Of a DNA stretch of 52,036 bases, positions 3 through 13,041 are shown in pieces (position 1 is the first letter of the stretch; the number at the start of each line of letters is the position of its first letter). The position numbers were made by a program, and so were the translations under genes. Under the pieces are notes generated by a model, which did no database searches, was not told the origin of the DNA, and saw only the letters and a list, made by a program, of their open reading frames with translations. Source of the stretch: Actinomycetes bacterium (lineage in GTDB: Bacteria > Actinomycetota > Acidimicrobiia > Acidimicrobiales > JAKAOS01); contig JAJYWE010000013.1 in the NCBI GenBank assembly GCA_021791675.1, forward strand, positions 3,378-55,413, read 5' to 3'.

Positions 3-1004
3 GGCTGAGCCTGCAAGCTCGCCCCGGGCGAGCTGACGCAGGTTCTGCGTCATCTGGGCACACCCTCCCATCCAGACCTGTTGGTCGGGACGGAGACCGG
101 CGACGACGCCGCCGTGTGGCGGCTCGATGACACGCGCTCGTTGGTCGTCACCGCGGACTTCATCACCCCGGTCGTGGACGACGCGACGACCTGGGGTCGG
201 ATCGCCGCGGCCAACGCGGCGAGCGACGTCTACGCGATGGGGGGTCGTCCGCTGTTCGCGCTGAACCTGGTCGCCTGGGACGCAGACCGCCTCCCGCTCT
301 CCCTGTTGGGCGAGGTGCTCGAGGGGGCCCGTCTCGCAGCCGCCGAGGGCGGGTGGGTCACCGCCGGTGGCCACACCGTGACCGACCCGGAGCCGAAGTT
401 CGGCCTCGCGGTGGTGGGGGAGGTCCCGACGGCGTCCGTGCTCACCAACGTCGGGCTCCGTCCCGGCGAGCAGCTCGTGCTCACGAAGGCGCTCGGCGTC
501 GGGGTGCTGACGACCGCGCTGAAGGCCGGTCGCGCCGACGCAGCCGACATCGATGCCGCGGTCGCCTCGATGGTCCGCCTGAACGCCGACGCCCTCGCCG
601 CCGCGCGGGCCGCCGGGGCGACGGGGGCGACGGACGTGACCGGCTTCGGCCTGCTCGGGCACCTCCGTCGGATGGTCGAGCCGCTCGCCGTGGACGCGAT
701 GGTGGACGTGGGGTCGGTGCCGCTCCTGCCCGGGGCTCGCGAGGCGGGAGCGGCCGGGCTGGTCCCCGGGGGGACCAGGCGCAACCTGGCCTGGGCCCGG
801 GAGGTGCTCGACGACGGGGGCCTCCCGGAGCTCGAGCTCCTGCTGCTCGCAGACGCGCAGACCTCGGGCGGGCTGCTCTTCGGGGCCCCTCCTGTCGGGG
901 CAGCCGGCGCGGTCGCGACGCTACGCGCGTCCGGCCACCAGGCAGCCATCGTCGGCGAGGTCGTCGAGGGGACCGGACGCATCCGCCTCCGTGCCGGAGC
1001 CTGA
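3..1004 (+). CDS. selD: Selenide, water dikinase (selenophosphate synthetase), 5'-truncated by window edge; contains in-frame UGA (6-8) read as selenocysteine
   Basis: ORF 81..1004 is SelD-like (GDDAAVW, DFITPVVDD, AAANAASDVYAMGGRPLFALNLVAW, TDVTGFGLLGH, ADAQTSGGLL). The same frame continues upstream with no sense stop except TGA at 6-8: GGC TGA GCC TGC AAG CTC = G-U-A-C-K-L, matching the SelD catalytic (C/U)-x-C-K motif. Confidence 0.93.
16..34 (+). promoter_or_regulatory. Candidate bacterial SECIS-like hairpin just 3' of the selD UGA
   Basis: AGCTCGCC (16-23) / CCG / GGCGAGCT (27-34): perfect 8-bp inverted repeat 7 nt after the UGA codon. Confidence 0.5.
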
Positions 1005-2160: not shown

Positions 2161-2952
2161 CTAGCCGAAGCGGTTGGCGAGGGTCCGGTAGACCCCGGGG
2201 GCGAGCGCCTGGAAGGCCACCGGCACCCGCAGCCAGCCCGGGCAGAGGACGACCGGCCGGCGAGCCGCGACGCAGTCGAGCACGTCGGCAGCGACGCGGT
2301 CCGGTGCGAGCGGCTTCGGCCAGGCACGTGCGTAGGGCTGGCCGCGGCGTGCGAAGAACGCCGTGTCGACGGGACCGGGGCTCACGATCCCGACGTGCGC
2401 CGGCGCGAGCTCGGCGGCGAGCGCCGAGGCCGCGGCGACGAGGCCGCCCTTCGCGGCGGAGTACGCCGTCTCGTTCCCGACGCCGAGATGCCCGGCCACG
2501 GAGCCCACGAAGACGAGCGCCGCTTCCCGGCGCCCGGTGAGGTGGGGCGCCGCCGCCGCGGCGAGGTGGAGCTGCGACGCGAGGTCCACTGCGAGGAGGT
2601 GGTCGAGCGTGTCGGGGTCCATCTCGGCGAGCGGCCCGGCCCACCCGACGCCCGCGGCGGCCACGACCAGGTCGAGCCCGCCGAGCGCGCGGACTGCGTC
2701 GTCGACCAGGCGGCGGGCCGCGCTCGGATCGGCGAGGTCGGCGGCGAGCGGGGTCGCGCCGAGCTCGGCCGCGAGCGACGCGAGGGGCTCGCCCGCACGG
2801 CCGCTCAGGGCGAGGTGCGCGCCGAGCTCGGCGAGCTGGCGCGCGACGGCCGCCCCGATCCCGCCGGTCGCGCCCGTCACCAGGCTTCGCTGCCCCGCGA
2901 GCCGTGCCGCCCGCGCCTCGGCATGTCGGGACCGACTGGTTGTCCGGCCCAC
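2161..2952 (-). CDS. SDR family NAD(P)-dependent oxidoreductase
   Basis: VTGATGGIGAAVARQLAELGA (Rossmann TGxxxGIG), AAGVGWAGP, YSAAKGG (YxxxK), SPGPVDT. GTG start at 2952 chosen because the longer ORF overlaps the upstream gene. Confidence 0.88.
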   Translation of the reverse strand: MGRTTSRSRHAEARAARLAGQRSLVTGATGGIGAAVARQLAELGAHLALSGRAGEPLASLAAELGATPLAADLADPSAARRLVDDAVRALGGLDLVVAAAGVGWAGPLAEMDPDTLDHLLAVDLASQLHLAAAAAPHLTGRREAALVFVGSVAGHLGVGNETAYSAAKGGLVAAASALAAELAPAHVGIVSPGPVDTAFFARRGQPYARAWPKPLAPDRVAADVLDCVAARRPVVLCPGWLRVPVAFQALAPGVYRTLANRFG

Positions 2953-2969
2953 GTCTCCGGTCGCTCGGA

Positions 2970-4109
2970 CTAGGCGAGGCCGAGCGCAGCCCGGACCCGC
3001 TCCTCGGCCTGGCTGAGTGGGTCGTCGCCCCCCGTCAGCGCCTCGATCGCCCGGAGCGTCGGGTAGCCCGTCGCCTCCTCCGCCTGGAGCCGACGCGCGA
3101 AGCCACCGGAGCGGATGTCCTCCAGGATCGCGGCGAAGTGCCGGCGCATCGCCTGCGCGTCGAGCTCGAGGGTGCGCAGGAAGCCCCCGAAGGCGGCCGC
3201 AGCTCCGTGGCCCCGGACGGACCGATAGAAGCCCTGCTGGGCGAAGGTGGAGAACACCCGGGACATCTCCCCGGAGCCGTACATCTCCACGACGAGCGCC
3301 TCCGGTGGCAGGCCCGCCTCGGTCCCGAGCGCGAAGGCGAGCTGCATCGCGACCCCGAGGTAGGGTCCGATGGTCTGCTCCACGAGCAGGTCGACCAGCG
3401 CCTCGTCCGCGGCGCCGAGCTCGAGCGCGCCGCGCTCGAGCGTCCCGATGGCCGCAGCGAGTCCGAGGAGCCGCCGCCACGCCTGGCCGGACACGTCCCG
3501 CTCGACGGCGAGGTAGCTCGTGAAGCCCTCGCCGCTCCGCGCGGCAGCGAGGACGGCCTCGCCGAGCATGCGTGGCGCGAGGAGCGCCACGTCCACGCTC
3601 GGAGGCGGCGACACGAGGTCGTACGCCAGGCAGTACCCCGAAGCGAAACAGACCGTCGCGCCGGGCCGCAGCCTGTTCGCCACCGTCGGGAATGCGCTCG
3701 GGATGACCTCGTCCGGGAGCAGCACGTAGACGAGCTCGGCATCCGTCACGGCCTCGACCAGGTCCGCGACGGGCAGCCCGGCGGCAACCGCCTTCGCCCG
3801 GTAGGCGTCCTCGATGTTCCCGACGACGAGATCGTGGCGCCCCTCCGCGAGCAGCGTGGCCACCGAGGCTCCGAGGTTCCCGAAGCCGAGCACGGCGATG
3901 CGCACCCCCACGAGGGCGTCGGGCTCCGCGTCCGCCGGGCCGAAGAACCGGGCCGGCCGGACGGGCGGGCAGACCCCGCGGGCACCGAAGCCCGGGCCCG
4001 CGCCGACGAGACGGTCTCGCTCCTCGCAAGGCGAGACCCGCGCGGGGTCGGCACCGAGGGACAGCCGGTCGGGGCCGGTGCCCGTGGAGAGCGGTGGCGC
4101 CACGGTCAT
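2970..4109 (-). CDS. NAD(P)-binding, ketol-acid reductoisomerase (IlvC)-like protein in hopanoid operon
   Basis: IAVLGFGNLGASVATLLAEGRHDLVVGNIE Rossmann start, LLPDEVIP, KARI-like C-terminal helical region; TGATG overlap with the hpnH stop. Confidence 0.7.
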   Translation of the reverse strand: MTVAPPLSTGTGPDRLSLGADPARVSPCEERDRLVGAGPGFGARGVCPPVRPARFFGPADAEPDALVGVRIAVLGFGNLGASVATLLAEGRHDLVVGNIEDAYRAKAVAAGLPVADLVEAVTDAELVYVLLPDEVIPSAFPTVANRLRPGATVCFASGYCLAYDLVSPPPSVDVALLAPRMLGEAVLAAARSGEGFTSYLAVERDVSGQAWRRLLGLAAAIGTLERGALELGAADEALVDLLVEQTIGPYLGVAMQLAFALGTEAGLPPEALVVEMYGSGEMSRVFSTFAQQGFYRSVRGHGAAAAFGGFLRTLELDAQAMRRHFAAILEDIRSGGFARRLQAEEATGYPTLRAIEALTGGDDPLSQAEERVRAALGLA

Positions 4110-5116
4110 CAGTGTGCTCCGACCGCAGCGCGCAGCGTCTGGCGGAGCGAGCCCATCGTCGCGAGGACCGCCGTCGGCTCGTAGCCGCAGTGCGCCATGC
4201 AGTTCGCGCAGCGAGGGTCCTTCCCCCGCCCGTAGCGGTCCCAGTCGGTGGTCTCGACGAGCTCCCGGTAGGTCGCCGCGTAGCCGTCACCCATGAGGTA
4301 GCAGGGCCGCTGCCAGCCGAAGACGGAGTAGCTCGGGATACCCCAGGCGGTGCAGGAGTAGTCGACCTTGCCCTCCAAGAAGTCGAGGAACAGCGGGGTG
4401 TGGTTGAGGCGCCAACCCTTGCGACGCCCGTCGGCGAAGACCTTGGCGAACAGCTCGCGTGTCTCGGTCACGCCGAGGAAGTGCTCCTGGTCGGGTGCCT
4501 TCTCGTACGCGTAGGCGGGCGAGAGCATCATTGCGTCGACGCGGAGCTCGTTGTTCAGGAAGTCGAGTACCTCGATGACGGACGCGGGGGAGTCCGTGGT
4601 GAAGAACGTCGAGTTCGTCGTGACCCGGAAGCCCTTCTCCTTCGCGAGACGGATCGCAGCGACGGCACGGTCGAAGGTGCCGGGCCGATCGACGGCGGCG
4701 TCGTGGCGGTCGCGCAAGCCGTCGAGGTGCACCGTCCAGGAGAAGTAGGGCGAGGGTCGGAAGCGGTCGATGCGCCGCTCCAGCAGGAGCGCGTTGGTGC
4801 AGAGGTAGACGAATTTCCGCCGCGCGACGAGCGCCTCCACGATCTCGACGATCTGGGGGTGGAGGAGCGGCTCCCCGCCGGCGATCGAGACCATGGGCGC
4901 GCCGCACTCCTCGATGGCGCCGACCGCATCCTCGACGCTGAGGCGCTTGCGGAGCACCTCGGTCGGGTACTGGATCTTCCCGCAGCCCGGACAGGCGAGG
5001 TTGCAGGTGAACAGCGGCTCGAGCTCGACGATGAGCGGGAACTTCTCTCGCCGGGCAAGCTTCTGGCCGGCGAGGTAGCGGGCCATGGTCAGGTTCTGTC
5101 GCCACGGGATGGGCAC
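4109..5116 (-). CDS. hpnH: Adenosyl-hopene transferase HpnH (radical SAM)
   Basis: MPIPWRQNLTMARYLAGQKLARREKFPLIVELEPLFTCNLACPGCGKIQYP: CxxxCxxC and HpnH-specific N-terminus. Confidence 0.95.
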   Translation of the reverse strand: MPIPWRQNLTMARYLAGQKLARREKFPLIVELEPLFTCNLACPGCGKIQYPTEVLRKRLSVEDAVGAIEECGAPMVSIAGGEPLLHPQIVEIVEALVARRKFVYLCTNALLLERRIDRFRPSPYFSWTVHLDGLRDRHDAAVDRPGTFDRAVAAIRLAKEKGFRVTTNSTFFTTDSPASVIEVLDFLNNELRVDAMMLSPAYAYEKAPDQEHFLGVTETRELFAKVFADGRRKGWRLNHTPLFLDFLEGKVDYSCTAWGIPSYSVFGWQRPCYLMGDGYAATYRELVETTDWDRYGRGKDPRCANCMAHCGYEPTAVLATMGSLRQTLRAAVGAH

Positions 5117-6639
5117 GATCGCACCTCCTGGGGGAGTGGGAAACGGACGCGCTCGAGGGTGGTCGAGCGCTCTTCGATGCTGAGCCGGCCGAGCCCGGAG
5201 AGGGCGTCGAGGAGGGAGGTCACGACACGCTCCGGGGTGGAGGCCGCCGCGCTGATGGCGACCGTGCCGGCGTTCTCGAGCCAGGCGAGGTCGAGGTCCT
5301 CTGCCCGGTCGACGAGGTGTGCCCGGGCTCCGAGGCGCCGGGCGAGCTCGACGAGGCGGTTGCCGTTGGAGGAGTTGGCGGAGCTGGCGACGAGCACCAG
5401 GTCGGCCTCGGTGGCACAGCGGGCGAGCGCCTCCTGGCGGTTCTGGGTTGCGTAGCAGATGTCCTCCGCGGACGGCGCGACGAGGTCGGCGAAGCGGGCC
5501 TCGAGCGCCTCGACGACGCCTGCCACCTGGTCCGGCGCGAGGGTGGTCTGGGTGAGACGGGCGACGGGCGTCGCGACGGGGATGGGGAGGTCGCCGACGT
5601 CCTCGGGTCGCTCCACGAGGTGGATGCGCCCGCCGGCTTCGCCGAGGGTCCCCTCCACCTCGTCGTGACCGGCGTGGCCGATCAGGACCACCTCGCGCCC
5701 CTGGGCGGCGAAGCGACGCGCCTCGATGTGGACCTTCGCGACGAGTGGGCAGGTGGCGTCGACCACGTCGAGATCGCGGCGCGCCGCTTCCTCGCGCACC
5801 GCAGGGGCCACGCCGTGTGCCGAGAAGACGACGGTCGCTCCGTCGGGCACCTCGTCGAGCTCCTGGACGAACACGGCGCCCCGAGACTCGAGGTCAGCCA
5901 CGACGTGGGAGTTGTGGACGATCTGGCGGCGCACGTAGACGGGCGGACCGAAGCGCTCGAGCGCCCGGGCGACGATCTCGATCGCCCGTTCGACACCCGC
6001 GCAGAACGACCGCGGCGCGGCGAGGACGACGCGACGCGGCTGGCAGGCGGCGGCCCAGGCGTCGAGGTGGGGCGGGAGGCCGGCGAGGGTCCGCAGCGCC
6101 ACCAGCCCCGCCTTCGGCACGCCACGCGCCCCGGTGCCCGCCGTGTCGGCGACCACTCGCGCCACGGCCAGCGGGCGCTCGCCGAGCGGCCCGAGCGCGC
6201 CGAGCACGGCTGCGGTCTCCATGTCGACGCCGAGCGCCCCCTCGTGGGCGAGGCGGTCCCGTCCCTCGCCCCGCACGAGGGTGTCGCTCGAGACGAGCGG
6301 GCCGACGACGACCGGCAGGCCCGCACGGCGGAGTGCACCGGCGAGGAGGGGCGCGCTCGGGAGTGTCCAGACCGACCCCTCGCCTCGGACCTCGCTCGCC
6401 ACGAGCACCGTCCCCGGGCGCAGCTCGGGTCTCGTGCCCCCGGCCACCCCCGTCACGGCCACCGGTGTGGCCGGTCCGAGGGACGCGGCGAGCCTCGCGG
6501 TCGCGTCCCGGGCACGCACGGGGCCCATGCCGGTCGTGGTCACGACGCCGGCACCGACGCGCCGGCGGAGCGCTGCCGCCTCGACCCGCAGCGCGCAGAC
6601 GACGGCGAGCGAGGAGCGCGCCGGCACCGGGGCTCTCAT
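5089..6639 (-). CDS. hpnG-ispH: Fusion: HpnG-like hopanoid nucleosidase/phosphorylase (about 6040-6639) + IspH 4-hydroxy-3-methylbut-2-enyl diphosphate reductase (about 5089-6036)
   Basis: One uninterrupted 516-aa frame. N-term: VCALRVEAAALRRR...GVDMETAAVLGAL (MTA/SAH nucleosidase-like). C-term: RSFCAGVERAIEIV, IVHNSHVVADL, DATCPLVAKVH, GHAGHDEVEGT, EDICYATQNRQ, SSNGNRL (IspH). Confidence 0.9.
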   Translation of the reverse strand: MRAPVPARSSLAVVCALRVEAAALRRRVGAGVVTTTGMGPVRARDATARLAASLGPATPVAVTGVAGGTRPELRPGTVLVASEVRGEGSVWTLPSAPLLAGALRRAGLPVVVGPLVSSDTLVRGEGRDRLAHEGALGVDMETAAVLGALGPLGERPLAVARVVADTAGTGARGVPKAGLVALRTLAGLPPHLDAWAAACQPRRVVLAAPRSFCAGVERAIEIVARALERFGPPVYVRRQIVHNSHVVADLESRGAVFVQELDEVPDGATVVFSAHGVAPAVREEAARRDLDVVDATCPLVAKVHIEARRFAAQGREVVLIGHAGHDEVEGTLGEAGGRIHLVERPEDVGDLPIPVATPVARLTQTTLAPDQVAGVVEALEARFADLVAPSAEDICYATQNRQEALARCATEADLVLVASSANSSNGNRLVELARRLGARAHLVDRAEDLDLAWLENAGTVAISAAASTPERVVTSLLDALSGLGRLSIEERSTTLERVRFPLPQEVRSCPSRGDRT

Positions 6640-8645
6640 CGGGTGCCCTCGGTGGGGTCGAGCGCGGCGAGGAAGCGCCCCAGTGCGCCGGTCGGGAAGA
6701 CCTGGCGGTAGAGGTGGTAGTTGATGTAGAAGTCGCCAGGAAAGCCGGTGCCGGTGAACCACGGCTCGTCCCAGGTGCCATCCGCGCGCTGGGTCGCCAC
6801 GAGGTAGGCGACGCCGGCCCGCGTCGCCTCGCCGAGGTCGCCGAGGGCGAGCAGGGCGAGCAGTGCCCACGCGGTCTGGGACGCCGTGGACGCGCCGCGG
6901 CCCGCCCAGTCCTTCTCCACGTAGGAGCGCAGGTCCTCTCCCCAGCCTCCGTCGTCGTTCTGGTGGGCGAGGAGCCAGGCGCGAGCCGCGAGGAGCCGGG
7001 AGTCGGTCGGTGCGACGCCTGCCGCGACGAGCGCGGGGACCACGGCGCCGGTCCCGTAGACGTAGTTCGCGCCCCACCGGCCGAACCAGGAGCCGTCGGT
7101 CTCCTGCGCCCGCCAGAGCCAGTCGACACCGCGCGCCAGCGCGCGCTCCTCCGCCGGGTCGAGGGAGGGCTCCTTCGCGAGCATCTCGACGACGTGGGCC
7201 GTGACGTCGGCCGAGGGCGGATCGGTGACCTCGCCGAAGTCGCAGAAGGGGAGTTGGCCGACGAGGGTCGAGGTGTTGTCGGCGTCGAACGCGGCCCAGC
7301 CCCCGTCCGCGCTCGCCATCCCGACCACCCAGCGCCGACCGCGCTCGATCGCCTCGGCGACCGCTGGAGGCGGCGCCGGGTAGGCCCGGCGGAGCGCGAG
7401 CAGCACCTCCGCGGCGTCGTCGATGTCCGGGTAGTGGTCGTTCTCGAACTCGAACGCCCAACCGGAGGGCTCGAGGTGGGGGCGGCGCACGGCCCAGTCG
7501 CCGCGGACCCGCACCTCCTGGCCGACCAGCCACGAGGCTGCCCGGGCCACCGCCGGGTGGGGGGGCTCGAGGCCGGCGTCGGCGAGGGCGATCACCGCGA
7601 GGGCCGTGTCCCAGACCGGCGACTGGCAGGCCTCGAGGCGCACCTCCTCGCCGTCGCGGACGGAGAAGCCCTCGAGCCCGGCGAGGCCGACGGCCAGTGC
7701 GGGGTGCTCGAGGGGGTAGCCGAGGAGGTGGAGCGCGAGCAGCGAGTACACCCAGGGCGGCTGGATGCCGCCCCAGCACCCGTCCGCCTCCTGACGACGC
7801 AGGATCCAGCGCTCGGCCCTCCGGAGGGCGAGCGTGCGGAGCGCCTGGATCGGGCGGCGCTCGTAGCGGCGGAGGAGGCGGTCGACGAGGACGAGCCGGC
7901 CGGCTGTGGTGCGCAGGTCGACCTCCGGGCGCTTCGCGACACCGGTCCGGAGCTCGTCGAGGCCGAACGGCAGCGGCCGCACGGGCCGGTGGGCCCCCAC
8001 CACGGTGAGCGCCACCACGGTCTGGCGGGCCCAGCAGGCGAAGTCGTAGATGTTGGCCGGCGCGAAGCTCGGGAGCAGGATGACCTCGGGCGGCAGCGCC
8101 GGGAGGTCCTCCCACGGCCAGAGGCCGAACAGGGCGAGCCAGAGCCGGGTGAAGACCCGTGTGGACTCGAGGCCCCCGTTCGAGCGGACGTGCTCGGCCG
8201 CCTTGGCCATGTGGGGGTCGTCCGGTCGGTCCCCCGCGAGGCGGAGCGCGACGTAGGCCTCCACCGTCACCGACAGGTCGGCGGGTCCCTCGTAGAAGGT
8301 CGCCCAGGTTCCATCGGAACGCTGGCTTCGCCGGATCCAGCGGGCGGCCGCCTCGGTCCGCGCGGCGTCGCGGATACCGAGGAACTCTCGCAACAGCAGG
8401 TCCTCGGCGTCCATCGTGACGTTCGTCTCGAGCTCGCCCTTCCACCACCCGGGCTCCTGCTGCGAGCGGAGGAGCGCCTCGACGGCAGCGTCTCGGGCGT
8501 GAGCGACGGCCGCAGCGTCACAGCTGGGCGCGTCGAGGGGCGGCCGCGGGGGAGCGAGGATGCGCTCCGGAGCCCGAGCGCCCCTCGTCTCGGCGTTCCG
8601 CCGGCCGGCGGCGCGCGTCCGAGCGCGGCGGGGATCAGTACGCAC
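6636..8645 (-). CDS. shc: Squalene-hopene cyclase
   Basis: DIDDAAEVLLAL (DxDD motif), multiple QW-type repeats (DGGWAAFDADN, DGSWFGRWGANYVYGTG, DGTWDEPWFTGTGFPGDFYINYHLYR). GTG start at 8645. Confidence 0.95.
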   Translation of the reverse strand: MRTDPRRARTRAAGRRNAETRGARAPERILAPPRPPLDAPSCDAAAVAHARDAAVEALLRSQQEPGWWKGELETNVTMDAEDLLLREFLGIRDAARTEAAARWIRRSQRSDGTWATFYEGPADLSVTVEAYVALRLAGDRPDDPHMAKAAEHVRSNGGLESTRVFTRLWLALFGLWPWEDLPALPPEVILLPSFAPANIYDFACWARQTVVALTVVGAHRPVRPLPFGLDELRTGVAKRPEVDLRTTAGRLVLVDRLLRRYERRPIQALRTLALRRAERWILRRQEADGCWGGIQPPWVYSLLALHLLGYPLEHPALAVGLAGLEGFSVRDGEEVRLEACQSPVWDTALAVIALADAGLEPPHPAVARAASWLVGQEVRVRGDWAVRRPHLEPSGWAFEFENDHYPDIDDAAEVLLALRRAYPAPPPAVAEAIERGRRWVVGMASADGGWAAFDADNTSTLVGQLPFCDFGEVTDPPSADVTAHVVEMLAKEPSLDPAEERALARGVDWLWRAQETDGSWFGRWGANYVYGTGAVVPALVAAGVAPTDSRLLAARAWLLAHQNDDGGWGEDLRSYVEKDWAGRGASTASQTAWALLALLALGDLGEATRAGVAYLVATQRADGTWDEPWFTGTGFPGDFYINYHLYRQVFPTGALGRFLAALDPTEGTR

Positions 8646-9654
8646 GGTCCACCACGAAACGGGCGAGCCCGGCCAGCTCCTCGGTGGCCGGTTCGGTGAG
8701 CGGCGCAGTCTCGAGGAGCCCGAGCGCCCTGCCGAGATGCGCCTCGGCAGCCTCGCCGGCATAGGCCCGCCCGCCCGCCCGCTCCACCAGCTCGGCGGCC
8801 CGTGCGAGAACCCCTTCGTCGTCGCGGGGACCGGCGAGCAGCCTCACCAGCTCCTCGGATTCGGGTCGACCGGCGCTCAACGCTGCGGCGACGGGGAGGC
8901 TCGCCTTGGCAGAGCGGAGGTCGCTCCAGCGGGGCTTGCCGGTGCGCTCGGGGTCCCCCCAGATCCCGAGGAGGTCGTCGACGGCCTGGAAGGCGAGGCC
9001 GAGCTCGACCCCGAACGCCTCGAGCGCGTCCGCGACCGGCGCCGGCGCTTCCGCGAGCACGGCGCCGAGGGAGGCTGCGGCCCCGAGGAGCGCACCGGTC
9101 TTCGCCCGCTCCATCGCCTCGCAGGCGTCGAGCGAGGGGAGTGGCGTCCCCTCCGCGGCGATGTCGGCTGCCTGGCCCGCGATCATCGCGGAGGTGGCGG
9201 CCGCGAGACGGCGAGCGGCCGCGAAGGCGCCGAGGCTGGGTGCGTTCGCGAGGACCTCGTGGGCGAGGGAGAGCAGCGCGTCACCCGCGATCACCGCCTG
9301 GCTCACGCCGAACAGCGACCAGACCGTCTCGCGGTGGCGGCGCTCGCGGTCCCCGTCGATCAGGTCGTCGTGGAGGAGCGAGAAGTTGTGGACCAGCTCG
9401 ACCGCAACGGCACCCGGCACACCCACCGTCCCCTTGGCTCCCACCGCCTCCGCGGAGAGCACGGCGAGGGCGACCCGGACACCCTTGCCGCCGCCCCCGG
9501 GGGTCGCGAGGCCGTTCGCGTCGGTCCACCCGAGGTGGTAGCGGACCGGGGGTCGGAGCTCTGGCGCAAGGCTGGCAACCGCCTCGACCAGGGCCGGGTG
9601 GGCGAGCTCCTGCGCTCGGGTGAGCACGGGTGGCGGTGCCGTGGTCGGGATCAC
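8635..9654 (-). CDS. Polyprenyl (farnesyl-type) diphosphate synthase
   Basis: LLHDDLIDGDRERRHRETVW (DDxxD), FQAVDDLLGIWGDPERTGK (second Asp-rich motif). Confidence 0.93.
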   Translation of the reverse strand: MIPTTAPPPVLTRAQELAHPALVEAVASLAPELRPPVRYHLGWTDANGLATPGGGGKGVRVALAVLSAEAVGAKGTVGVPGAVAVELVHNFSLLHDDLIDGDRERRHRETVWSLFGVSQAVIAGDALLSLAHEVLANAPSLGAFAAARRLAAATSAMIAGQAADIAAEGTPLPSLDACEAMERAKTGALLGAAASLGAVLAEAPAPVADALEAFGVELGLAFQAVDDLLGIWGDPERTGKPRWSDLRSAKASLPVAAALSAGRPESEELVRLLAGPRDDEGVLARAAELVERAGGRAYAGEAAEAHLGRALGLLETAPLTEPATEELAGLARFVVDRAY

Positions 9655-11153
9655 GCGAGGGCCTCCTCTCTGGTCACGCCGGCGTCCGGGCGAGACACGA
9701 CGCCGTGGATCGCTGCGAAGTGCCTCGACGTCGCCGGGCGGCTGTCGGTCGGGGTCGTCGCGGCCGCTCCGAGCCGGTGGGGCAGACCTGCCCCGCTGTT
9801 CCCAACTCGACCACCCGCCTGCACGACGACGGCGCGCGCGGCGTCGGCGCCGCTGCGCACGGCGCCCTCCATGGTCGCCGGCCACCCGGTGTCCGTCCAC
9901 GCCCCGGCCAGGTAGACCCCCGGGAGCCGGGTCCGGGTCGCGGGGCGCTCGAGCTCGCTGGCCGGGGTCGCGGCGAAGGTGGCCGCTGGTTCCTTCGTGA
10001 CGACGGCGTCGAGGACTGCTGCTCGGCCCGCGTCCGGGAAGAGCGCCGTCAGTGCCTGGAGCATCTCTGCGACGAGCTCGGCCGGCCGCTGTCCCACCCA
10101 GGCGTTCGCTGCGGAGAGCGACACGCCGACGCACTGCTGGCCCGGCGCAGCGCCGACCGCCCTGGACCGGTCGAACAGCCACTCGATGGGGCTGTCGAGC
10201 GCCGCTGCGAGCTCGACGTCCAGGACGGGACGGTCGAAGACGATCTGGACGTTCACGATGGGAGAGGTCCCGAGGCGTGCGGGGTCGTGTGCGAGCGCTC
10301 CCGGGGGGAGGAGCCGCCCGGCGGCGGTGCTCCCGACGGCGACCACGACTGCCGGCGCAGGCTCGTCCCCGTCCGTCCCCCAGATGCGCGGCGTCGCGTC
10401 CGAGGCATCGAAGGTGACGGCGCGGACCGCCTCGCCGAGACGCACCTCGACGCCGGCTGTGTGCAGCGCCTGGAGCGGGGCGGTGTGGTGGAGCTGGCCG
10501 AGGGGCACGGTGGCCCAGCCGATGTCGGCGCCGTCGTGGTGCTCGAGGAGTCCGGTGCCCACCACCCGCGCGGCCAGGGCGAGCGACAGCTCGGCCGCAG
10601 GGAGGTTGCAGGTCGCCCGGAGGAGCGGCTCCCAGAGCGACTGGAGTGCCGGGCCGCGCGGCGGACCCGGCCGGCGCTCGAGCCAGGCGCCGAAGCTCTC
10701 CCCCCGGGTCGCCGCGTCGCGGGGTGAGAGCGCGCCGAGCGCCCGGGCGTCGAGGGCCGACCAGGCGCGCAGCGCCGGCGGGAGCGCGCGGAAGCGTGCG
10801 AGCGTGCCCGCGAGGTGCAGCGGGCTCGGCGCGTCGGCTCTCGTGAGGCGCTCCCGCTGCCCGCCGGGGCGGAGGACGGGGAGGTCGAGGCGGTCCTGGA
10901 GGCGGGTGGCGGCGGTCATCCCGATCCGGTCGAGGAGCGCGCGGTAGGCGGTGCAGCAGCGCAGGAAGACGTGCTGGCCGTTGTCGTAGGTGAAGCCGTT
11001 CCGCGAGAAGGACCAGGTCAGGCCACCCAGGCGGCGCCGCCGCTCGACGAGCCGGACGGTCGCGCCGGCGGCCGCCGCGTCGAGCGCCGCCGTGATGCCG
11101 GCGAGCCCCCCACCGACCACGACCAGGTCCGGGCTCGCTGGACGGCTCGTCAC
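9651..11153 (-). CDS. hpnE: Hydroxysqualene dehydroxylase HpnE (FAD-dependent)
   Basis: VVVGGGLAGITAALDAAAAGATVRLVERRRRLGGLTWSF FAD motif; C-term VYLAGAWTDTGWPATMEGAVRSG; between hpnD and the prenyl synthase. Confidence 0.92.
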   Translation of the reverse strand: MTSRPASPDLVVVGGGLAGITAALDAAAAGATVRLVERRRRLGGLTWSFSRNGFTYDNGQHVFLRCCTAYRALLDRIGMTAATRLQDRLDLPVLRPGGQRERLTRADAPSPLHLAGTLARFRALPPALRAWSALDARALGALSPRDAATRGESFGAWLERRPGPPRGPALQSLWEPLLRATCNLPAAELSLALAARVVGTGLLEHHDGADIGWATVPLGQLHHTAPLQALHTAGVEVRLGEAVRAVTFDASDATPRIWGTDGDEPAPAVVVAVGSTAAGRLLPPGALAHDPARLGTSPIVNVQIVFDRPVLDVELAAALDSPIEWLFDRSRAVGAAPGQQCVGVSLSAANAWVGQRPAELVAEMLQALTALFPDAGRAAVLDAVVTKEPAATFAATPASELERPATRTRLPGVYLAGAWTDTGWPATMEGAVRSGADAARAVVVQAGGRVGNSGAGLPHRLGAAATTPTDSRPATSRHFAAIHGVVSRPDAGVTREEALA

Positions 11154-12052
11154 GCGCGCCCCAGTAGCAGCGCTCGACCCGCGACGAGGGCTTTCTCGGC
11201 GGACGAGAGCCGCACCCGGCGCTCGAGGACCTCCTCGGGGCGGGTCTCGATGCGGGCCAGGAGCCGGCGGTAGATGCCCGCCATCGCACCCGCGCAGGCC
11301 GCGCTGCGGTGGTCGAGAGCGGGGAGCAGCCCGAGCCCGGACCGGTAGTAGCCCCGTGCCCGAGTGGCGAGGAGCAGCACGACCGCGACGAGCGCGTCGC
11401 GGTCGCCCTCGAGCTGGGGGCTCACCCCGAAGCGCTCGAGGTCCTCCTTCGGGAGGTAGACCCGGCCCATTGCCTGGTCCTCGCGGATGTCTCGCAGGAT
11501 GTTGGTCAGCTGCAGCGCGATCCCGAGGTCGTCGGCCTGGCGAGCGAGGACCGCCGCATCGCTGGCCTCGCGCACGCCGAAGACCGCGAGCGAGAGTCGC
11601 CCGATCGAGCCGGCGACCCGCTGGCAGTAGCCGACGAGCTCGTCGAAGGTCGCGTACGCGCTGCCCCGGCAGTCCATCTCGCAGCCCTCGAGGAGCTCCT
11701 CGAACGCGCCGAGCGGGAGCGGGAAGCGCCGCGTCGCGTCGGCGAGGGCGACGAGCACGGGGTCGTCACCAGGGTGGTCGAGGTCGGCAAGCGCGTGCCG
11801 GACGGCATCGAGCTCGGCAAGGCGCGCCGGCGCGCCGGCTGCCGCGCCGACGCGCGGTGGGGCGTCAGCGCCTGCGTCCGGGAGGCCGTCGCGGGCGGCA
11901 TCGCCGATGTCGTCGACGCGCCGGGCGAGTGCGTAGATCGCCGAGAGCGCAGCCCGCCGTTCGCGCTCGAGCAGGCGGATCCCGTAGGCGAAGTTGCGGG
12001 CCTCGTGGCGCGTCAGGCGCTCGCAGTAGGCGTAGGCCTCCGCCGGCGTCAC
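11150..12052 (-). CDS. hpnD: Presqualene diphosphate synthase HpnD
   Basis: AIYALARRVDDIGD, LTNILRDIREDQAMGRVYLPKEDLERFGV. Confidence 0.93.
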   Translation of the reverse strand: MTPAEAYAYCERLTRHEARNFAYGIRLLERERRAALSAIYALARRVDDIGDAARDGLPDAGADAPPRVGAAAGAPARLAELDAVRHALADLDHPGDDPVLVALADATRRFPLPLGAFEELLEGCEMDCRGSAYATFDELVGYCQRVAGSIGRLSLAVFGVREASDAAVLARQADDLGIALQLTNILRDIREDQAMGRVYLPKEDLERFGVSPQLEGDRDALVAVVLLLATRARGYYRSGLGLLPALDHRSAACAGAMAGIYRRLLARIETRPEEVLERRVRLSSAEKALVAGRALLLGRA

Positions 12053-13041
12053 GCGAGCCTCCAGGCTCGCCGGGGTGCCACGACGAGGCCGGCGGCGCGG
12101 CGAGCGACGGCGGCGGGCGAGGGCCGGACCTGCGTGGCGAGGGTGTCGTACCCGGCATCGGCGATCGCCTCGAGGGTCGCCCGCCCTCCCGCAACGAAAC
12201 CGGCCAGTGCAACCCTCGCGGCGCCGCGGGCGACCGCCACCAGCGGCGTCCCGGCCTCGAGCAGGGCAGCTGCTCGGCTCGCCTCCCACGCGACGAGACG
12301 CCTGAGCGACGGGACGGCCGAGGCGGCCGCCAAGGCCTCCTCGTCCACCCCGAAGCGGGCGAGGTCCGCGAGCGGGAGGTAGACACGGCCCCGTTGCCAG
12401 TCCTCGCGGAGGTCCTGGAGGTGCTCGACGACCTGGAGCGCGGAGCAGATCTGGTCGGAGTAGCCACGGGTGAGCGGCGTGTCGAGCTCGAAGATCCCGA
12501 GGACGACGCGCCCGACCGGGTTGGCCGACTGGGTGCAGTAGTCGAGCAGGTCCTCGAAGCGGTCGTAGCGGTGCTGGACCTGGTCGCGGAGGTTGGCGTC
12601 GACCAGGCCCACGAGCGGGGCGACGTCGAGGGCCCGCCGCCGGAGGACTGCGAGGATCGGTTCGACCGCCGAAGCCCAGGCTGCCTCGCCGAGGAGGTCG
12701 CGTGCGCGCCGCCCCGCCCCTTCGTGCGCCTCGCGCCGCGCGGCGGTCGGGGCCGCCTCGGAGCTCCCGGCCTCGACGAGGGCGTCGCGCAGAGCACCGA
12801 GCACCAGGACCCGGTCGGCCGCGACGGATCCCTCGTGGGTGGTCGCCCGCGCCTCGTCGCCCAGGTCGTCGACGGTACGTGCGAAGGCGTAGAGCGCCAG
12901 GAGATCGGCTCGCGGGGTGCGGGGAAGGAGACGAAGCGCGACGGGGAAGTTCTCGCGGCTCGCGCTGGCGGCGAGCTCCGCGGCGATGTGCGGGTCGCGG
13001 CGGCTGTCGGGCCGATCGGCCAGTGCTGGCGTAGGCCCCAT
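12049..13041 (-). CDS. hpnC: Hydroxysqualene synthase HpnC
   Basis: SRENFPVALRLLPRTPRADLLALYAFARTVDDLGDEA; VVEHLQDLREDWQRGRVYLPLADLARFGV. Confidence 0.92.
   Translation of the reverse strand: MGPTPALADRPDSRRDPHIAAELAASASRENFPVALRLLPRTPRADLLALYAFARTVDDLGDEARATTHEGSVAADRVLVLGALRDALVEAGSSEAAPTAARREAHEGAGRRARDLLGEAAWASAVEPILAVLRRRALDVAPLVGLVDANLRDQVQHRYDRFEDLLDYCTQSANPVGRVVLGIFELDTPLTRGYSDQICSALQVVEHLQDLREDWQRGRVYLPLADLARFGVDEEALAAASAVPSLRRLVAWEASRAAALLEAGTPLVAVARGAARVALAGFVAGGRATLEAIADAGYDTLATQVRPSPAAVARRAAGLVVAPRRAWRLA

Follow-up and report, generated by a model that had tools for sequence, protein, structure and literature searches.

An apparently undescribed fusion of an HpnG-like nucleosidase with IspH in the hopanoid operons of Actinomycetota

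We analyzed a stretch of 52,036 nucleotides of an Acidimicrobiales genome (contig JAJYWE010000013.1, assembly GCA_021791675.1; the window hereafter) and observed that a complete hopanoid operon carries, between its cyclase gene and hpnH, one gene that joins an HpnG-like nucleosidase to IspH. The sequence evidence suggests, with a probability of roughly 0.7, that the product is a bifunctional hopanoid enzyme, in which the HpnG step would be combined with a dedicated precursor-supply IspH without direct channelling between the two. The preliminary description of this DNA suggested that such an architecture might be undescribed. In agreement with this, we found no description of an HpnG-IspH fusion in the open-access papers searched. 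The fusion represents an apparently undescribed domain arrangement of known enzymes. The features of the operon are listed in Table 1.

Table 1. The fusion gene, its two halves and the other hopanoid genes of the operon, in window coordinates.
Feature	Coordinates	Strand	Basis
HpnG::IspH fusion gene	5089..6639	(-)	single open frame, 516 aa
Nucleosidase half, HpnG/MTAN-like, residues 1-198	6046..6639	(-)	PNP_UDP_1, TIGR03468, PDB alignments, Foldseek, residue table
IspH half, residues 202-516 (domain 203-508)	5092..6036	(-)	LYTB/TIGR00216, E. coli IspH structures, Foldseek, invariant columns
hpnH (adenosyl-hopene transferase, radical SAM)	4109..5116	(-)	TIGR03470, 528 bits (cut-off 225)
shc (squalene-hopene cyclase)	6636..8762	(-)	TIGR01507, 730.7 bits (cut-off 431)
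Polyprenyl diphosphate synthase, putative FPP synthase of the operon	8635..9645	(-)	NCBIfam prenyl synthase families
hpnE (hydroxysqualene dehydroxylase)	9651..11153	(-)	TIGR03467, 347.5 bits (above cut-off)
hpnD (presqualene diphosphate synthase)	11150..12052	(-)	TIGR03465, 259 bits (slightly below cut-off 278.6)
hpnC (squalene synthase)	12049..13041	(-)	TIGR03464, 247.4 bits (cut-off 250.45)

In the window sequence, the frame runs uninterrupted over 516 codons from an ATG at 6639 to a TGA stop at 5089-5091. The plus-strand translation across the same interval is likewise open, which has no bearing on the fusion gene. The coordinates given in the preliminary description proved exact, and the strand, absent from it, is minus; a check for a frameshift near position 6036 revealed neither a stop nor a frameshift at the junction. 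The proposed union of an HpnG-like nucleosidase and IspH in one frame was borne out by Pfam and NCBIfam matches: PNP_UDP_1 at residues 32-172 (46.9 bits; cut-off 25.1), LYTB at residues 204-480 (290.6 bits; cut-off 24.5) and the IspH model TIGR00216 (289.7 bits, exceeding its cut-off of 187.85). The nucleosidase occupies approximately residues 10-198 and IspH approximately residues 203-508. Hardly any linker separates the two, the natural end of HpnG being joined to the point where IspH naturally begins. A segment of the form L-x-x-W-A-x-A at this junction is invariant in all seven aligned fusions. The AlphaFold model of the fusion, built on seven sequences, reached a mean pLDDT of 86.7 and a pTM of 0.83. 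Finally, dN/dS was below 1 in both halves and higher in the nucleosidase (0.26-0.53) than in IspH (0.11-0.21; Nei-Gojobori NG86, two closest pairs), although these values are rough because of the high G+C and the near-saturated dS.

The same fusion was found in 12 genomes besides the window's and is located between shc and hpnH in every one of them (loci L003, L004, L005, L006, L007, L009, L143-L146, L223 and L224; L003 and L005 also appear as L227 and L228 and were counted once). When GTDB species genomes were searched at the protein level, full-length fusions were recovered from six other genomes, including that of Desertimonas flava SYSU D60003, a strain in culture. Within the window's class the fusion is rare, as a profile search of 296 genomes yielded only five carriers: the window's genome, G285, G193, G289 and G233. 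Among 398 genomes drawn from the phylum, the fusion was carried by G541 and G568 (the L003 and L005 loci), G462 and G350, all four of which lie outside the window's class. The window's genome is a draft of 149 contigs, which would be compatible with an assembly or frameshift error that joined two genes. However, an identical junction recurs in 12 further genomes that were assembled independently, one of them from an isolate, and we therefore reject such an artefact, whose chance we regard as negligible.

The operon has the order hpnC-hpnD-hpnE-prenyl synthase-shc-[hpnG::ispH]-hpnH and is a full hopanoid operon. The stop of shc overlaps the ATG of the fusion gene (ATGA) and the start of hpnH overlaps its 3' end by 28 bp, which shows how compactly the fusion gene is embedded among its neighbours. 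Among NCBIfam models, the prenyl synthase was matched best by that of an encapsulin cargo polyprenyl transferase, with 375.9 bits, which falls short of the cut-off of 450. Directly after hpnH lies a gene for a ketol-acid reductoisomerase-like (KARI-like) protein with KARI_N and KARI_C domains (2973-4109, minus strand; 150 bits relative to a true-IlvC cut-off of 336). A similar gene also follows hpnH in G233 (L146:9259-10230), and the homologs in G251 and G054 are located away from hopanoid genes. A short-chain dehydrogenase/reductase (SDR) gene stands at the end of the operon (2164-2985, minus strand), and comparable SDR genes occur after hpnH in G233, G193, G289 and L006. We can only speculate that the KARI-like protein and the adjacent SDR are candidates for an unassigned reduction in the hopanoid side chain. 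Elsewhere in the window, a SelD-like gene (3-1004, plus strand) was recognised by eye; its frame reads G-TGA-ACKLAPGEL just past an assembly gap, and it probably encodes a selenocysteine-containing SelD.

The best NCBIfam nucleosidase model for the N-terminal half is HpnG (TIGR03468; residues 10-183), at 65.1 bits, below the cut-off of 187.1. The stand-alone HpnG of a classical, Streptomyces-type operon (L282) also falls below this cut-off, with 66.9 bits, and therefore the cut-off does not discriminate in Actinomycetota. None of the 296 genomes of the class draw passed it, and we rejected it as an uninformative membership test in this phylum. The nucleosidase half does not reach the MTAN equivalog model PRK05584 either (33.4 bits vs 169). 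Its closest solved structures are MTA/SAH nucleosidases, both in PDB alignments and in a Foldseek search with the AlphaFold model. Residues E20, M140-E141, R161 and D165 align with the MTAN catalytic residues E12/E174/R193/D197 (PDB alignments and residue table). The window protein and all other fused halves tested except L009 retain E141, R161 and D165, and also E20; the position of E20 lies outside the fragment used for G193. At L009 (6001-6552, plus strand), Asp replaces the Glu and Gly replaces the Asp, and the IspH half is intact; the genome concerned carries other PNP-family genes. We detected no other HpnG-like match in the window's genome at 1e-6. Considering the position beside hpnH and the PNP/MTAN fold with its catalytic Glu/Glu/Asp, the nucleosidase half most likely corresponds to the HpnG of the operon. 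In G285, hpnH is followed by a class III aminotransferase gene whose relatives occur in the L282 and L283 operons, which would be expected if ribosylhopane is made.

By every sequence test, the C-terminal half is an IspH. It aligns to the E. coli IspH structures with 310 bits and about 48% identity over the domain, and the Foldseek search matched IspH with a TM-score of 0.93, normalised by target length. The Fe-S ligands Cys213, Cys297 and Cys395, assigned from the alignment to E. coli IspH, are invariant in seven of seven fusions, as are His242, His325, Glu327, Thr365, Ser423-Ser424-Asn425 and Ser467. The three cysteines and the motif residues of a complete IspH, as reported in the preliminary description, are thus present. 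That description also called for a search for a second, stand-alone ispH, and we located one in the window's genome, on contig C87. A separate stand-alone IspH is found in every fusion genome examined, in fragmented form in the G541 and G462 drafts. We accordingly rejected the possibility that the fused copy is the only IspH of the cell. Relatives of the same order that possess a hopanoid operon without fused IspH (G252, G256, G173, G181 and G242) have the stand-alone type only.

A tree of 88 IspH domains placed the fused domains in one clade of 19 rows (100/98), far from a separate clade (100/100) that holds the stand-alone copies from the order and class of the window. The fused IspH is therefore an accessory paralog and not the main IspH of the cell. 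Besides the fused domains, the 19-row clade contains the unfused operon copy of G114 together with the IspH of G522, G434 and G513. The copies of G522 (L220) and G434 (L284) lie beside dxs. The copy of G513 is clustered with genes for a geranyl diphosphate 2-C-methyltransferase, an encapsulin cargo-type terpene cyclase, a prenyl synthase and a family 2B encapsulin shell (L221, 3528-9330). These neighbours suggest that IspH paralogs of this clade are dedicated to particular isoprenoid products.

The slot between shc and hpnH is filled in several other ways. A stand-alone nucleosidase is found there (shc-hpnG-hpnH) in the relatives L150, L151, L152 and L148, and in the operons of the large g171 genomes, which resemble Streptomyces (L282 and L283). 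In G114 (L147) the order is shc-ispH-hpnH, with no nucleosidase between. A Thermoleophilaceae contig (L008) presents a fused remnant followed by shc, an intact stand-alone hpnG and hpnH; this remnant ends at the contig edge and its nucleosidase part has no catalytic Asp. The loss of the catalytic Glu and Asp at L009 and of the Asp in the L008 remnant suggests that some lineages can do without the nucleosidase function of the fusion. Fused and unfused states are mixed together across the operon tree and require at least five changes, which indicates that the fusion is not strictly retained. The branching of the nucleosidase-domain tree is mostly unresolved. These distributions may reflect one old fusion with subsequent losses, lateral transfer, or repeated fusion.

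We infer both catalytic activities, their substrates and the advantage of fusing from the sequences. According to the literature summarised in PMC12583986, HpnH adds the 5'-deoxyadenosyl radical to diploptene, yielding adenosylhopane, and HpnG is thought to strip adenine from adenosylhopane to give ribosylhopane. The N-terminal half of the fusion would then hydrolyse or phosphorolyse the N-glycosidic bond of adenosylhopane, supplied by the HpnH encoded next to it, and release ribosylhopane (or its phosphate) and adenine. The C-terminal half would reduce HMBPP to IPP and DMAPP at its [4Fe-4S] cluster, and the extra IPP/DMAPP would feed the prenyl synthase of the operon, HpnCDE and SHC. In terms of origin, an IspH dedicated to precursor supply would have become fused to HpnG. 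Through the fusion, how much precursor is supplied and when, and perhaps also where, would be tied to side-chain maturation. Direct channelling is implausible because squalene synthesis, cyclisation and adenosylation separate the two reactions. The preliminary description stated that the protein couples IspH with side-chain maturation; this idea is retained in the sense of co-supply and co-expression but not as direct coupling, since IspH stands at the start of the pathway, whereas HpnG comes into play after SHC and HpnH. The realistic readings of fusing are a fixed stoichiometry with co-expression, or no benefit.

To the latter reading we assign an appreciable but minority probability. Here, ispH would have entered the operon beside hpnG and the stop between them would have been lost, fusing bringing no advantage beyond co-expression. 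This near-neutral scenario retains both activities of the bifunctional enzyme proposed above; only the advantage of fusing is in dispute. The direct joining of a natural end to a natural start with almost no linker is consistent with it, as are the intermixing of unfused and fused arrangements, the existence of an ispH-only version (L147) and the decay of the nucleosidase half at L009. However, the fusion is retained in 13 genomes extending beyond a single class, and the L-x-x-W-A-x-A junction is conserved in the aligned fusions, both of which argue against it.

Other readings concern the nucleosidase half itself. The preliminary description had offered as an alternative that this half clears 5'-deoxyadenosine made by neighbouring radical SAM enzymes; more broadly, it could be a house-cleaning enzyme acting on 5'-deoxyadenosine or MTA from such enzymes instead of an adenosylhopane nucleosidase. 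The identity of its closest solved structures as MTA/SAH nucleosidases, the match of its catalytic residues to MTAN and the adjoining radical SAM gene hpnH are all compatible with this role. Nevertheless, the fusion occupies the slot that an unfused hpnG fills between shc and hpnH, its best NCBIfam nucleosidase model is HpnG and not MTAN, and the genome has no further HpnG-like match at the threshold given above. Furthermore, HpnH builds its adenosyl group into the product and does not release it (cited in PMC12583986). We therefore consider a clearance role less supported, and unlikely. A purely non-catalytic role of the nucleosidase half, in sensing adenosylhopane or in docking IspH to the hopanoid machinery, is very improbable: L009 does keep the domain although its catalytic Glu and Asp are gone, and purifying selection on this half is weaker than on IspH, but all other fused copies tested, that of the window among them, conserve the catalytic residues. 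In a related and improbable version, the fusion could be a control device, in which the nucleosidase half would sense or dock the late pathway (adenosylhopane or the HpnH complex) and adjust or localise the IspH half; precursor supply would then follow the demand for extended hopanoids.

Under the bifunctional reading, this natural fusion would join the last enzyme of the MEP pathway to hopanoid side-chain maturation. Our results indicate that some actinobacteria keep a precursor supply dedicated to hopanoids, and they support the view that the divergent HpnG-like proteins of actinobacteria belong to the hopanoid pathway. If annotation relied on the IspH half only, the HpnG step would go unnoticed, with consequences for the genome-based prediction of hopanoid (BHP) capacity.

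The fusion can be compared with several known systems. Its nucleosidase half shares with HpnG (TIGR03468) the slot between shc and hpnH, and the family and catalytic residues of the stand-alone copies of its relatives, but differs in that its C-terminus is joined to IspH. Relative to IspH/LytB (TIGR00216, PF02401), the IspH half has all the Fe-S cysteines and catalytic residues but bears an N-terminal nucleosidase and belongs to an accessory paralog clade. A dxs copy in the hopanoid operon is known from Streptomyces. Dxs-containing hopanoid operons of large genomes that resemble Streptomyces (G522, L283) likewise recruited a gene of the MEP pathway and have the same shc-hpnG-hpnH order; in contrast, the recruited gene is dxs instead of ispH and is unfused. 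A precedent for IspH in a two-domain protein is the bifunctional IspH/30S ribosomal protein S1 (NCBIfam NF000907), where the partner is however C-terminal to IspH and unrelated to hopanoids. Finally, the HpnC-HpnD fusion of subdivision 2 Acidobacteria (PMC5462960) also joins two enzymes of the hopanoid operon, but these catalyze adjacent steps of the pathway and consist of homologous domains.
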